From Sphingobacterium sp. SGG-5 (GTDB taxonomy: Bacteria; Bacteroidota; Bacteroidia; Sphingobacteriales; Sphingobacteriaceae), in contig NZ_JAAKGO010000001.1 of the NCBI RefSeq assembly GCF_011043525.1, positions 248,001 through 312,000 on the forward strand: a stretch of DNA of 64,000 bases. The letters run 5' to 3'. The notes below the pieces were generated by a model. That model did no database searches and had not been told where the DNA came from. It saw nothing but the letters and a program-made list of their open reading frames with translations. The first letter of the stretch is position 1; the number at the start of each line of letters is the position of its first letter. The position numbers and the translations under genes were made by a program. Shown here one piece after another: positions 32,183 to 37,310 of this stretch.

Positions 32183-34219
32183 ATGAATAGCACTATCCTC
32201 ATGAAACCAATTATAGGCTTGATTACTGTCCTGATCTGTATACAATCGCTCGTTGCACAGCAATTGGAGACCATATCGCCGATCGACACCTTTGAAAGCC
32301 AGATTCACACGGAAATCATCGGCAACCAGATCGTATTTAAATCGGAATTACGCCCATTGGTTCAGATCCCGGGTGGGCGAGCACCTTACTACACCTATTT
32401 ATGGGATTTTGGTGATGGACATTTCAGCACCCAAGCGGAGCCTGTACATCAATATGCGCAGCCCGGGGAGTACAACGTGACGGTATATGCGGTCAACAAC
32501 TACGACTTTGGTCCTAAGCCGAAACGACCGAGAAAGAAAGTCGAAGCGGCATCTGCTATAGCTTCCAATACCTCGCCCAATTTATTTGAGCAGAACTTTT
32601 TCTCTTCTAATGGTATATTTCAGATTTTCAAACTGTCCGATGCCAAGCCCGGTGAAGACATTTCGCTCGTCGTCGGTGTCAACACCGAAGGAAAAAAGGG
32701 ACGCATTTATATTTTATCGAATGAGAAAGTGGCGGGTTTGGACGGCTTCACATTTGCCAACCAGAGTAATTATTACCGGGAAAAGATCGACACACTACCG
32801 CAACGGGATGGACTGCATAGTCTATGGGCCAGCGTCAAACAGTCGACCTTTACGAAAACAGGAAGCCCGGATTATGGGATCAAGGAAGTCTCTCTTTTTG
32901 CCAATGAAAATCAGGCCATCGGTTACTTCAAAGACTTGTATGGGGCATACAACAGTTTGACAGCCTACGATATCGATCCGGCCAACGCCGAACAGCAGTT
33001 CTCGCTGATCAACCTGGACGTGACGGAAGACATGCTGGTCGACACCAACGCCATCGTTACCATCACAGGTGTATTCATTCCCGAAGATGGTCTCGCCAAT
33101 GTACATCAGGTGGATATCCCTGTCGTCAAATCGCACGATCCAAATAAAATGTCGGTCAAGCCGGCACGCATGAGTTATCGATTCCAAAGTAAGCACAAAA
33201 CCCTCACGTATAAAGTACAATTCCAAAACGATGGTGAAGGCGATGCCCGCAATGTCCGTCTGGAAATGGCCTTACCGCCGGAAGTCGACAAAAACACCTT
33301 TAAACTGAAAGCGCTGTACCCAAAATGCGACACCTGTCAAACCGACAACGCCATGGGCTGCTATCGTTATTACATCAAAGACGATGGTACCTTTGTCTTT
33401 CACTTTAAAGATATCGCTCTTCCTGGTACCGCAGCCAAAAATATTACGGACATGGACAGTACCAAAGGGTTTATTCTCTTTGATATCGATATGGAGAAGA
33501 AAAAGTTCCGGAATAAATCATTCAAGTCGTATACAAATATCTATTTTGACAAAAACCCACCGATCAAGACCAATACTTCAACCTCTCGTTTTCGGCAGAT
33601 TATCTCCCCTATCGTGACAGTGGGGGCAACAACCACGTTCGGCACACCGAAAGAACATGAAACGAAGTATCAATTCAAACCCGGTATACAACTTGGGTTC
33701 GGCTTAGCGCCTATGGCGCCGTACAAACGTCCTTATTGGCAAGCGGAGATTTATACGAGTTATTACGAGCAGAATGGTTCTATAAATATCTCTGGGCTGA
33801 AACAACCGGTATCCTTGCCTATAGGTCCGGAGGGAAGAATGATGGATGTAACCATAACTGCTTATGACAGCTTAGAGACTCGCAAATATTTATCGCTACA
33901 GCTACCTTTACAAATGAGGTATAATATTAATGCCTGGATCTCTGTAGGGGCTGGAGTGTCGCTTCGTAAAGATTTCAATACCTCTTCCAGCGCCAAAAAA
34001 ACTTACTACTATATGGTAGACGCCGCACAGGGTATGGAAGAGCGAACTCTCCTCGTCGAAAATGATGATATTCAAAAGGAAAACAGTGCTCTAAAATACA
34101 ACCCTTTCTTCGATATCAATATCGGACGGGTGTATATGGGGCCCGCTATCGGCTTCAGGGTCTCCTACGATAAAAATCAAAAATCCCACAGTGGCATCTA
34201 TGGCATCTGGCGGTTTTAA
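32183..34219 (+). CDS. PKD-domain secreted/outer-membrane protein
   Basis: This 678-residue protein has a signal peptide (KPIIGLITVLICIQSLVAQ); the ATG at 32201 is an equally good start. A PKD domain follows at about residues 40-110 with the diagnostic YLWDFGDGHFST and PGEYNVTVYAV. Near residues 330-340 is the SHDPNKMSV motif of Bacteroidota secreted proteins, followed by a DUF11-like beta domain (YKVQFQNDGEGDARNVRLEM) with a CDTC pair. The last 190 residues alternate polar and aromatic residues and end in GIYGIWRF, suggesting an outer-membrane barrel. It is divergent from the ECF sigma gene and may be its target. Confidence 0.75.
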   Translation: MNSTILMKPIIGLITVLICIQSLVAQQLETISPIDTFESQIHTEIIGNQIVFKSELRPLVQIPGGRAPYYTYLWDFGDGHFSTQAEPVHQYAQPGEYNVTVYAVNNYDFGPKPKRPRKKVEAASAIASNTSPNLFEQNFFSSNGIFQIFKLSDAKPGEDISLVVGVNTEGKKGRIYILSNEKVAGLDGFTFANQSNYYREKIDTLPQRDGLHSLWASVKQSTFTKTGSPDYGIKEVSLFANENQAIGYFKDLYGAYNSLTAYDIDPANAEQQFSLINLDVTEDMLVDTNAIVTITGVFIPEDGLANVHQVDIPVVKSHDPNKMSVKPARMSYRFQSKHKTLTYKVQFQNDGEGDARNVRLEMALPPEVDKNTFKLKALYPKCDTCQTDNAMGCYRYYIKDDGTFVFHFKDIALPGTAAKNITDMDSTKGFILFDIDMEKKKFRNKSFKSYTNIYFDKNPPIKTNTSTSRFRQIISPIVTVGATTTFGTPKEHETKYQFKPGIQLGFGLAPMAPYKRPYWQAEIYTSYYEQNGSINISGLKQPVSLPIGPEGRMMDVTITAYDSLETRKYLSLQLPLQMRYNINAWISVGAGVSLRKDFNTSSSAKKTYYYMVDAAQGMEERTLLVENDDIQKENSALKYNPFFDINIGRVYMGPAIGFRVSYDKNQKSHSGIYGIWRF

Positions 34220-34220
34220 T

Positions 34221-34266
34221 TTCATTTCGACGACTGTAGGAGGAGAATTGGGTGAGGGGGCTCACC
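34221..34266. repeat. Partial copy of the GIY-YIG element repeat plus a short hairpin
   Basis: TTCATTTCGACGA (34221-34233) followed by AGGAGGAGAA (34238-34247) matches the repeat arms of the adjacent GIY-YIG element. Next to it is a perfect small hairpin, GGTGAG (34251-34256) and CTCACC (34261-34266) with loop GGGG. It lies in the gap after the PKD gene, outside the element proper. Confidence 0.5.
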
Positions 34267-34281
34267 GCAGATTTAAAAAAA

Positions 34282-34699
34282 CGTCATTTCGAACGAAGAG
34301 AGACCGCGAAGCAGCTCCGAAGGAAAATCTATGGATAAATATTTTTCACGTATAGTTTTAAAACAATGGAAATAGGTGGAGCCGTATATATCATGACAAA
34401 TGTTAATAGGACGACGTTATATATAGGTGTCACATCCGATCTGCTTTGGCGAATAAAAGAACATAGAGAAAAAGTATATCCAAGATCTTTTACGGCTAAA
34501 TATAATCTTTCCGTATGTGTGTATTATGAGATTTTTTCGTCTATCGAGGAAGCTATTAACAGAGAAAAAGAGATTAAGAAATGGCGGCGCGAAAAGAAAG
34601 ATTTTTTAATAAACAATATGAATCCCAATTGGAGAAATTTGTGGGAAGATATAAAAAACTGGTAAATAGATTTCTCCTCCTTCCTCGTCGAAATGACGG
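34282..34699 (+). mobile_element. GIY-YIG gene framed by inverted repeats, possible compact mobile element
   Basis: The left arm (34282-34332) starts CGTCATTTCGAACGAAGAG and ends in AATCTAT. The right arm (34666-34699), read on the minus strand, starts CGTCATTTCGACGAGGAAGG and ends in AAATCTATTT. The arms thus form an imperfect inverted repeat around one GIY-YIG nuclease gene, with the CGTCATTTCGA ends pointing outwards. A further part copy lies at 34221. The block is about 420 bases and sits between the PKD and CHAT genes. Mobility is inferred; no target duplication was identified. Confidence 0.6.
34366..34665 (+). CDS. GIY-YIG endonuclease domain protein
   Basis: This 99-residue single-domain protein has the motifs of the UvrC/URI type. 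VYIMTN followed by TLYIGVT supplies the two tyrosines of GIY-YIG. Arg in LLWRIKEHR and Glu in EEAINREKEIKKW are the expected catalytic pair, and the C-terminal LINNMNPNWRNLW is typical of the small family members. It probably nicks or cuts DNA with a divalent metal. The gene is framed by inverted repeats, which suggests it acts on or moves with them. Confidence 0.85.
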   Translation: MEIGGAVYIMTNVNRTTLYIGVTSDLLWRIKEHREKVYPRSFTAKYNLSVCVYYEIFSSIEEAINREKEIKKWRREKKDFLINNMNPNWRNLWEDIKNW

Positions 34700-34712
34700 T
34701 AAAACATAAAAA

Positions 34713-37310
34713 ATGGGGAAATATATTATATACCTACTGTGTGTATTGATTGCTAAGACCGTATTGCACTGCTCTGCCCCTACGGCACAACAAAGTACGT
34801 CCGCATCAAAAGCGATATCCCTTCCCGATTCGCTTTTTGAATACTTCGAAAGTACCGCCGATCTCTCTCCCGAAAAGTATGTCTCCAACCCTGACTCTTT
34901 TTTAAACAGCCTGAGCCTCACCCCGCAGTCATTCGAACAACAGGAGATGTACGCTTACGGGCTGATCTTCATGGCTTATGGTCTGCGGGAATACGGCGAT
35001 CATTATAACGCCATCCGGTATTATGAGAAAGTATTAAACTTCATTCAGTCGAAGAACCTGAAAGATATCAATACCCATGTATACGTCATCAAACCACTGG
35101 CAGCACTGTATACCTTAATCGATGACAACCAGAAGGCAATCAATTTATTGGAACAGACGCTGGATAAAATCCCAGTGGACCAATATCGCCAAAGGGTTGG
35201 CTTTGCGAACAATCTTGCCAATGCATACCTCTACAATCAGGACCTGACGAAGGCGAAGAAGCTCATAGAGGAAACGCTGAAAAAACCCACCGAATCCCTC
35301 TCACGTGCTTTGCTGTATAACACCCTTTCTACGGTCTATCAGGAGGAAAACGATGCGGACAACAGTACAAAATATAATACACTGGCCTTACAGGAATTTG
35401 CAAAAAACAAATTGTACGGCGACACACTCATCTGGTATGCGTCAGCGCTGGGGCAATATGGGGAAATCCATCACGATTACGCTTCCGGCCGTCAGGCATT
35501 ACAGTTGTTGAACAACCATTTCCCCGACACGCAACATCGGACAAAAGCCCGACTGCAGCTTACCCTCGCCAATATCCTGTTTCACAAAAATGATGTCCCT
35601 CGAGCAAAGCGTACGTATCAGCAGGTTGTTGATGCCTTATCTTCCACGGTGGGTGACGAGTACACACTGGATTATACCTATACGCAGGCGCTCGTGGGAC
35701 TGGCGAGATGCTTCGGACAAGAAAATGAGGTGGACTCGACGCTTCACTATTTCCAATGGGCAATTGAAAACGACTTTCGGACACAACAGCTCATTACGAG
35801 TAAAAGAAATCAAATCAATAACAACATCTGGAACCGAGCGATTATAGAAGAAATGTCGGCCTTGATCGAACGCGTCCTGATACAAGAACCGACAAAACAA
35901 GACATCGTAGAGACGCTGCTTTGGTGTATCGAATTAAGCAAAGGACGACTGCTTATTAACGAGATAAACCGATCGGAAAAATGGGACCATGGCGATCTTT
36001 CGTTAAAAAACGCTATCCGGACTATCCGTCACCTGCATCAGAAAATCAGTCAGACGACGGATCAAAATCAACGAGAAGCGCTTCAACAGCAGGTCAATCA
36101 GCTGATGATCGACTTTCAGCTTTCCGAACGTTATTTTGAAACGTATAATTATTCACCCGATAAGGCCTCTTTCTTCACCCATTTAAACGAACCTAATAAA
36201 AGCTACTACAGCTATTTCATCCATAAGGACAAAACGATTACCGTCATTGATCGGTCGAACGACAGGTACACTTACCACAAGATAACCGACACTACTTTTA
36301 CCACCTTTGTCCAGCAGTTTAAGGACACCTATTTCGGGGCTTCGCCCAATAGCTATAACCGCGATCCACTACACTACCGGGAGCAGTCACATCGAATCAT
36401 CAGCGCGTTATTGCCGGACCTGCATACGGCTGACGGCAACATTTGCCTCTCGCTGGATGGACAGCTTTATGGGCTTCCTTTTGACGCTTTGTATGAGAAA
36501 GGTTTCTTGGTCAACATCTACAATTTCGCGTATCTCAATTCGTTCATCCTCTACGATCTACTGCAAGCACCGACAGCCAATCAAACGGATATTACCCTGC
36601 TCTATCGGGCTTCCTTTCCTAAACCCTTACCGGATTTAAAATTTGTACACGAGGAAGTCGACAATATCGGCAAACATTTCAAAAGTGAACAAATCGGACC
36701 CAAAAACCAAAACGACTCCACGATCGTCCAACAATTCGCCGGATCTCATATCATCCATATTGCGGCACATACCATTTTGGATGGTGATGACAATCCGATT
36801 ATCTATTTACAGCAGCCGATCTCGACTAAACAGCTCCGTTTTTACCACATTTACTCCCCCATGGTATTTCTGTCGGCATGTAATACGGGAAGCGGTATAT
36901 CCCTACCTTCCGAAGGTATGGAAAGTATCCAGCGGGTATTCTTGGGTAAGGGCGTACCTTCCGTCATCTCAACCTATTGGTTTGCCAACGATGAAGCCAT
37001 GCTGCGGCTGACGTCCCTGTTTTATCAACAGCTCTATGAAAGCCGGAAACCTGTCGAGGCATTAGCGCAGGCAAAACGCGTATTTCTAAACGAAGCATCT
37101 ATCGAACATCAAAATCCCTGGTATTGGGCCAACATCAATTATTCAGGGATAAACAATGAGATAGGCTTGCGAAAAAACACAAACCTATCTCTCTATATGG
37201 GCATTGGTATAGTTATCCTTCTATTAATCCTCACAGGAATATACATCCATTCACGGTCGAATCGCTCTACGGTAAAGAAAGACGAAAAATCCGATCACGA
37301 AGCGTACTAA
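34713..37310 (+). CDS. TPR-CHAT (caspase-like) membrane protein
   Basis: This 865-residue protein starts with a signal sequence (KYIIYLLCVLIAKTVLHCSA; the Cys is a weak lipobox). Residues 60-400 are helical TPR-type repeats (YALGQYGEIHHDYASGR-like units). The C-terminal CHAT domain has the catalytic His686 in HIIHIAAHTILDG and Cys723 in VFLSACNTGSGI, followed by VFLGKGVPSVISTYWF. A membrane segment (YMGIGIVILLLILTGIYIH) lies near the C-terminus, with a short charged tail. It should be a cysteine protease facing the periplasm, its TPRs binding a partner or trigger. Neighbours are a PKD protein, an ECF sigma pair and an OmpA protein. Confidence 0.85.
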   Translation: MGKYIIYLLCVLIAKTVLHCSAPTAQQSTSASKAISLPDSLFEYFESTADLSPEKYVSNPDSFLNSLSLTPQSFEQQEMYAYGLIFMAYGLREYGDHYNAIRYYEKVLNFIQSKNLKDINTHVYVIKPLAALYTLIDDNQKAINLLEQTLDKIPVDQYRQRVGFANNLANAYLYNQDLTKAKKLIEETLKKPTESLSRALLYNTLSTVYQEENDADNSTKYNTLALQEFAKNKLYGDTLIWYASALGQYGEIHHDYASGRQALQLLNNHFPDTQHRTKARLQLTLANILFHKNDVPRAKRTYQQVVDALSSTVGDEYTLDYTYTQALVGLARCFGQENEVDSTLHYFQWAIENDFRTQQLITSKRNQINNNIWNRAIIEEMSALIERVLIQEPTKQDIVETLLWCIELSKGRLLINEINRSEKWDHGDLSLKNAIRTIRHLHQKISQTTDQNQREALQQQVNQLMIDFQLSERYFETYNYSPDKASFFTHLNEPNKSYYSYFIHKDKTITVIDRSNDRYTYHKITDTTFTTFVQQFKDTYFGASPNSYNRDPLHYREQSHRIISALLPDLHTADGNICLSLDGQLYGLPFDALYEKGFLVNIYNFAYLNSFILYDLLQAPTANQTDITLLYRASFPKPLPDLKFVHEEVDNIGKHFKSEQIGPKNQNDSTIVQQFAGSHIIHIAAHTILDGDDNPIIYLQQPISTKQLRFYHIYSPMVFLSACNTGSGISLPSEGMESIQRVFLGKGVPSVISTYWFANDEAMLRLTSLFYQQLYESRKPVEALAQAKRVFLNEASIEHQNPWYWANINYSGINNEIGLRKNTNLSLYMGIGIVILLLILTGIYIHSRSNRSTVKKDEKSDHEAY

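Follow-up and report, generated by a model that had tools for sequence, protein, structure and literature searches.

A GIY-YIG nuclease gene between CGTC-tagged inverted repeats: a probable REPtron-like element in Sphingobacterium, with relatives in many phyla

Among the described systems closest to the locus presented here are the RAYT genes, which reportedly lie in every case between two inverted REPs (PMC2817692), and the enzyme TnpAREP, which cleaves REPs and for which the GTAG tag is important (PMC8266576). The other of two large classes of palindromic repeats in bacteria, the CGTC REPs, was reported without a dedicated transposase (Di Nocera et al. 2013, PMC3733652). According to the same source, the transposase of these repeats possibly vanished early, and what spreads them was left open. 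The CGTC-tagged superfamily described there includes the Neisseria dRS3 and the Rickettsia RPE-6 and RPE-4 repeats, as well as heterodimers composed of different stems.

The window analysed in this work is a stretch of 64,000 nucleotides from Sphingobacterium sp. SGG-5, and it holds a 417-bp unit (34282-34698) composed of a CGTC-tagged repeat arm, a GIY-YIG nuclease gene and an inverted arm. The unit and its surroundings, in window coordinates, are as follows.

32183..34219, forward strand: flanking PKD / DUF7619 / DUF7849 gene (open reading frame, Pfam)
34220..34712, no strand: gap from the PKD to the CHAT gene, 493 bp (congener comparison)
34221..34247, forward strand: degenerate third copy of the arm, without the full tag, just outside the unit (sequence, inverted match)
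34282..34332, forward strand: left repeat arm, with the tag CGTC, then ATTTCGA..., and the inner end AATCTAT (tag match, comparison with the repeats of the genome)
34366..34665, forward strand: gene for the 99-aa GIY-YIG nuclease, which has the residues conserved in its family (open reading frame, Pfam, alignment, model)
34666..34698, reverse strand: right repeat arm, inverted, with its CGTC tag outward at 34698 (tag match)
34713..37310, forward strand: flanking TPR / CHAT gene (open reading frame, Pfam, congener search)

The exact tag CGTCATTTCGA is found at 34282-34292 on the forward strand and at 34688-34698 on the reverse strand, and these two arms are the only sites in the whole window that match it with one mismatch or fewer. 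The right arm, which is inverted, terminates in TCGAAATGACG, and AATCTAT is the inner end of both arms, each read in its own direction. A sequence-only reading had described a 99-residue GIY-YIG gene enclosed by inverted repeat arms, a third part copy outside them, and a position between PKD and CHAT genes. The whole of this description was upheld: the domain is recognised by Pfam, the arms carry the exact tag and the AATCTAT inner ends, and Pfam places both of the genes that border the gap. The third copy is also genuine, with an inverted match of 86% between 34213-34233 and 34685-34705, though the full tag is absent from it.

The nuclease matches Pfam PF01541 (GIY-YIG) with an E-value of 7e-15 and 55.5 bits, against a cut-off of 22.6. 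Residues Y8, Y19, G21, H33, E67 and N86 are invariant in 57 aligned rows and R29 is kept in at least 90%, so that membership of the GIY-YIG superfamily is met by the domain together with the conserved Tyr, Arg, His, Glu and Asn. The AlphaFold2 model of the protein (pLDDT 95.8, pTM 0.87) was compared with known structures by Foldseek, in which the sole match at E ≤ 0.001 was UPF0213 BH0048 (1zg2, E 4.9e-4), followed more weakly by Slx1 (E 0.018 and weaker) and then by a UvrC domain (E 0.2). By sequence, only 1zg2 and 1ywl were matched among the structures. Hairpins or forks would be fitting substrates for an enzyme that, like Slx1, cuts branched DNA, although this is an inference.

The genome to which the window belongs (4.11 Mb in 53 contigs), in which only exact tags were counted, contains 37 exact copies of CGTCATTTCGA, against 2 of the reversed pattern. 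The arms are thus dispersed over the genome; had they been unique to the locus, the sequence-only reading would have been refuted. Twelve neighbouring pairs of tags lie within 1 kb, with the tags outward in every one of them; when 37 tags were placed at random, a mean of 0.04 tag-outward pairs within 450 bp was obtained. Eleven of these pairs are gene-less dimers of 81-136 bp, while the twelfth is the 417-bp nuclease unit. A prediction of the sequence-only reading is thereby fulfilled, in that gene-less repeats are many and a single copy has the gene. The shared plan of the repeats is CGTCATTTCGA...GGAGAAATCTATGG-spacer-inverted copy. For the 13 other exact tags there is no exact partner, and for several a degenerate one could be seen by eye. 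As a separate observation, L017, L026 and L030 show a second repeat subtype in the window's genome, where a CGTCATTTCGA arm is paired with a different partner ending in ATAATGACGCG.

Long hairpins (z -6.4 to -9.2) were predicted for the six gene-less dimers, out of 11, that were folded as single strands of DNA, whereas the single arms of the window folded no better than their shuffles (z +2.0 and -0.7). In this genome, therefore, the structure belongs to the dimer and not to the single arm, and the idea of a stable hairpin in each arm of the window is unsupported. Arms from two other loci were folded as references, with a weak 5-bp foot in L006 (z +1.2) and a strong hairpin in L077 (z -2.8).

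Repeats of the same kind accompany the relatives of the nuclease. In a set of 30 loci, our own and the 29 that match it best within its family of organisms, the sequences of the repeats differ and mostly follow, by eye, the one plan CGTCA-stem-GA...stem'-TCT, in which the variable stems are complementary (TTTC/GAAA, TTGC/GCAA, TGCT/AGCA, CCCT/AGGG and others, also by eye). A hairpin detector, settled on these same loci after inspection of their flanks, required CGTC, a stem of 5 nt, a loop of 3-60, the complementary stem and then CT or CC. With it, 124 hairpins were found within 400 bp of the genes and 63 farther out, compared with 0-9 near the genes for 11 permuted tags. At least one CGTC hairpin lay within 400 bp in 28 of the 30 loci, and on both sides in 22 (0-2 and 0-2 for the permuted tags); L058 and L059 had none within that distance. 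Some of the arrangements are more elaborate: L044, L047, L048, L063 and L066 have tandem arrays of repeats beside the nuclease gene, with a period of about 75-190 bp, and in L039, L043, L044, L051, L057 and L063 the left and right arms differ in stem (for example ATGCT and ACCCT), a difference that is kept through the array.

A plasmid collection provided 32 matching records, of which 15 were fetched. A CGTC hairpin was present within 300 bp in 10 of these 15 loci, whose hosts are Rhizobiaceae, Azospirillum, Sphingobium, Aeromonas, Photobacterium and Neisseria gonorrhoeae. The remaining five have variants of tag or stem that were recognised by eye, namely TGTC tags in Planktothrix and Spirosoma, CGTC with a GCCCCGTG stem in Novosphingobium, and CCTC tags in two rhizobial loci, one of them on one side only. 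The N. gonorrhoeae homologue is located inside an array of CGTCATTCCCGC repeats, which we take to be dRS3 on the equation made in the CGTC REP paper named at the outset. Three of the 'plasmid' records (CP090106.1, NZ_CP104131.1 and NZ_CP119140.1, of 2.2-3.7 Mb) resemble mislabelled chromosomes, as inferred from their size and genes.

A genome scan with a protein pattern, covering one genome per species in 84,980 species, gave at least 580 confirmed places, of which the best 80 were kept. Judged by record title, these 80 are mostly from Bacteroidetes, many of them metagenome bins, and the others include Proteobacteria, Acidobacteria, Armatimonadetes, Clostridia, Oscillospiraceae, Dehalococcoidia, Anaerolineaceae, Nitrospirae, Elusimicrobiota, Brocadiaceae and Melainabacteria. 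With CGTC alone, a hairpin was found within 300 bp in 47 of the best 80 of at least 580 and on both sides in 27, while 11 permuted tags on the same loci gave 0-6 and 0-1, respectively. When TGTC and CCTC were admitted as well, the counts within 300 bp rose to 72/80 on any side and 47/80 on both, against 3-13 and 0-2 for six control tag sets. Since these two tags were added only after reading the CGTC REP literature and inspecting the plasmid loci, the CGTC-only counts are the cleaner test. The flanks of the relatives are therefore not random; random flanks would likewise have spoken against the sequence-only reading. A chance origin of the repeats is rejected on these permuted-tag controls together with the 37 tags against 2 and the 12 outward pairs in the window's genome.

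The enrichment is local. Across the 80 loci the density of repeats was 5.70/kb at 0-150 bp from the gene against 0.19/kb at 2.4-5 kb, and when open reading frames of at least 80 aa were set aside it was 6.64/kb up to 300 bp from the gene and 0.95/kb at distances above 1 kb. Likewise, 258 of 756 CGTC/TGTC tags near the genes had a 5-nt hairpin, compared with 489 of 5148 far from them. On the left the nearest repeat had its tag outward at 44 of 56 loci, on the right at 46 of 63, and both nearest repeats were outward in 26 of the 47 two-sided loci, the other 21 not having the tag-outward arrangement. In six of the 80 loci no detector match lay within 350 bp, and variants with other tags or tails or with imperfect stems were seen there by eye. 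At L125, L143, L158 and L164 the tags, again by eye, are AGTC or GGTC. This suggests a tag less restricted than CGTC, perhaps NGTCA.

Not every GIY-YIG gene has such repeats. The nuclease has one protein match in its own genome at E ≤ 1e-3, and Pfam finds two further GIY-YIG places there, in frames of 136 aa and 601 aa, the longer of which is probably UvrC, as inferred from its length. No hairpin was detected within 1 kb of L068, the other small GIY-YIG gene present here, and no tagged hairpin in the flanks of L069, the 601-aa frame. The same was true within 1 kb of L192 and L193, less similar homologues (E about 1e-16 to the family profile) from two genomes of the genome-level survey, G094 and G158. 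The association with repeats thus belongs to a subfamily, whose border is unmapped, and weak matches resembling these control genes are present in most genomes as well, 191 of the 201 surveyed having some match.

The type of repeat also goes with the protein. Among 125 loci, 116 with a typed repeat, each nuclease was compared with its nearest relative at 40-80% identity. The two agreed in repeat type in 65 of 116 comparisons, where shuffling gave 20.3 (none of 500 shuffles reached the observed value). Part of this agreement comes from common descent of neighbouring loci, so the match between type and protein is no proof of recognition. Two paralogues in a Pedobacter metagenome bin, PMG_085 (L094 and L098), have different repeat types.

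At the level of whole genomes, the counts covered three proteins and three types of tag in 201 genomes. The test was confined to the three largest genera, with 104 genomes in all, and for one of them (g15) it took a single protein and a single type of repeat. What passed as a 'close homologue' was fixed after the values had been seen. In genus g14 the median was 232 tags in the 26 genomes with a close homologue against 16 in the 9 without (p 0.00098), in genus g1 it was 23 in 10 genomes against 7 in 25 (p 0.038), and in g15 the correlation for the single type was rho 0.51 (p 0.002). Type matching among gene-bearing genomes gave 14/20000 by permutation in g1 and 793/20000 in g14, and most single correlations of the relative scores were not significant. 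Some genomes are rich in tags without a close nuclease. The congener G016, complete in one contig, has 632 tags, 628 of them exactly CGTCATTGCGA, with no match to the nuclease family at E ≤ 1 and no Y1 match; G158 and G094 have 311 and 170 tags over the three types, and their sole homologue is the less similar one without adjoining repeats. In G119, outside the test, there are 12 tags, all belonging to one type, without any match. Such genomes would fit a loss of the enzyme after the spread of the repeats, yet they speak against strict dependence. Type matching is strong at the level of the flanks and mixed at the level of genomes.

Empty sites between the PKD and CHAT genes had been anticipated in relatives, and they were found. 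The search covered 60 genomes of the genus, our own included, and the CHAT gene was present at E ≤ 1e-20 in 20 of them. In all 19 other CHAT-bearing congeners a PKD homologue lies upstream of the CHAT gene and the nuclease unit is absent from between the two, where there is neither a tagged hairpin nor a GIY-YIG match. The two genes abut in 18 of the 19, with the first start of the CHAT frame from 112 bp before to 6 bp after the PKD stop; in the remaining congener (L166) they are separated by about 0.1-0.2 kb (at least 101 bp) of other sequence. Comparable cases were found farther away. Azospirillum lipoferum 4B has the nuclease gene and repeats between sufB and sufC, inside the suf cluster (L080, 3001-3267), and 11 other Azospirillum records match both ends of this stretch with a span about 0.5-0.6 kb shorter, the gene being absent from the site in the three of these that were aligned. 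Sinorhizobium K101 lacks the gene cluster present in S. meliloti Ak57 but keeps a remnant of the repeat. Alignment did not fix the exact points of insertion or any target duplication, as the flanks are too diverged, and polymorphism of gene-less dimers between strains could not be followed in 50 kb of S. meliloti pSymB, where no repeat of the filtered kind was present. The mobility of the gene-bearing unit is supported by the empty sites.

The architecture of the unit, the dispersal of its repeats, their local and type-linked association with the nuclease in many phyla, and the empty sites are all observed, and on this evidence we consider it probable that the unit is a REPtron-like element in which a minimal GIY-YIG nuclease is the dedicated partner of CGTC REPs, in the role of a RAYT and with an unrelated enzyme. 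The analogy with RAYTs had already been drawn in the sequence-only reading and remains the best account of the locus, and no Y1 (RAYT/IS200) domain was found in the genome; cleavage of its own REP by the nuclease is inferred. No activity was shown, and recognition, cutting, copying and movement, like any step at single strands or forks, are equally inferences. Also weighing against the reading are the tag-rich genomes without a close nuclease, the mixed type matching among genomes, the weak folding of the window's single arms, the 21 two-sided loci whose nearest pair is not tag-outward, and the lack of defined insertion points. Most likely, the nuclease would recognise the tag and the hairpin foot of its own repeat type, its substrate being single-stranded or branched DNA at replication forks, and would nick beside the tag, after which the dimer, with or without the gene, may be copied to new intergenic sites. 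The gene-less inverted pairs would then be the dispersed REPIN-like population of the genome. With somewhat less assurance, we favour the wider proposal that small GIY-YIG nucleases are type-specific, dedicated mobilisers of the whole CGTC/TGTC REP superfamily, dRS3 included, and convergent with the HuH RAYTs on the REPtron architecture.

The nuclease could instead be a free-standing homing endonuclease, or a hitch-hiker, that shelters in repeat dimers spread by some other enzyme. GIY-YIG enzymes are known from homing and from other mobile DNA (PMC1564403), the repeats are abundant without the gene in G016, and homing into one repeat type would also give type matching. This is unlikely, however, given that the gene sits between two arms that keep their tags and does not split one, here and at many loci, and that the number of tags increases with the gene within genera. 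No Rfam intron family was matched at even E 1, and an intron-borne homing gene was rejected, since there is no Rfam intron in 33900-35000 and the gene lies between two genes. The genome has no Y1 domain that could supply the other enzyme, although only Y1 was searched for and other transposase families fell outside the search.

A domesticated host enzyme, whose task is the processing or upkeep of repeats useful to the host in termination, supercoiling or repair, so that the link is regulatory and not mobile, is hard to reconcile with the patchy presence of close homologues (in 10 of the 35 g1 genomes and 26 of the 35 in g14), with several matches per genome (up to 10, with stops in some), and with units that interrupt gene pairs otherwise adjacent. 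We give this explanation little credence, even though the gene is single-copy in the window's genome, the residues of the family are conserved across many phyla, and TnpAREP itself has been termed a domesticated transposase (PMC8266576). That the repeats could be MITEs derived from a RAYT or a DDE transposase, with the nuclease there by chance, is barely credible. The dimers are indeed MITE-like, and the tag-rich G094 and G158 hold 4 Y1 genes each, but a CGTCA-type hairpin lay within 300 bp at none of these 8 Y1 loci (one has a CGTCA pair about 1 kb away, and another an unrelated CGTCTTTT match at 106 bp), and the association at the best 80 of at least 580 loci is far above its controls. Our own genome and G016 are both without a Y1 (PF01797) match, DDE transposases being outside the search, and a RAYT is thereby rejected as the mover in the window's genome.

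If the preferred reading, that of a dedicated GIY-YIG partner of CGTC REPs, is true, two unrelated nuclease folds converged on one miniature-element life style, GIY-YIG enzymes in bacteria acquire a role akin to transposition, and a function is found for a large and poorly characterised family of proteins. With a specific enzyme family found in matching repeats in many phyla, the spread of the CGTC REPs, left open in PMC3733652, is now testable. Among the literature matches listed, there was no report that links GIY-YIG proteins to REPs, REPINs, RAYTs, dRS3 or MITEs, bioRxiv and most subscription papers being outside the scope of the search. The text of a GIY-YIG phylogenomics paper (PMC1564403) is without 'palindrom', 'flank' and 'COG2827', 'GIY-YIG' is absent from a 2024 review of MITEs (PMC10969869), and 'RAYT', 'nuclease' and 'transposase' are absent from a 2025 survey of REPs (PMC12306157).

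Compared with other GIY-YIG proteins, the nuclease shares fold and small size with UPF0213 BH0048 (1zg2) and EF2693 (1ywl), and the fold with Slx1, whose substrates are branched DNA according to the entry titles, and with the N-terminal domain of UvrC, although the probable UvrC frame of this genome is not flanked by repeats. With the homing endonucleases of the I-TevI type it has in common the superfamily and the link to mobile DNA, but no intron was found, it has only 99 residues and no second Pfam domain, and its score for NCBIfam TIGR01453, 18.9 bits, is far below the cut-off of 56.05.

The repeats resemble the CGTC REPs, as described in PMC3733652, in the CGTC tag with its TGTC and CCTC variants, in a stem that begins with A-T pairs, in hetero-dimers with different stems, and in hosts that include Bacteroidetes and alpha-Proteobacteria. 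The published repeats are mostly HH dimers, with the tags outside, as are all 12 close pairs in the window's genome. They have, however, a stem of 8-9 bp and a loop of 4-5 nt, a criterion that is met in alpha-proteobacterial loci such as L077 and unmet by the arms of the window, with a foot of at most 5 bp and a long loop; and while no associated transposase gene was reported for them, here a nuclease gene lies inside. With the RAYT or TnpAREP REPtrons (PMC2817692, PMC8266576) and with REPINs (PMC3116915) the present unit shares a nuclease gene between two inverted tagged repeats and gene-less repeats dispersed over the genome, but the RAYT is a tyrosine (HuH) enzyme of the IS200/IS605 type and its REPs have a GTAG-type tag, whereas here the gene has no Y1 domain, the enzyme is an unrelated GIY-YIG nuclease and the tag is CGTC.
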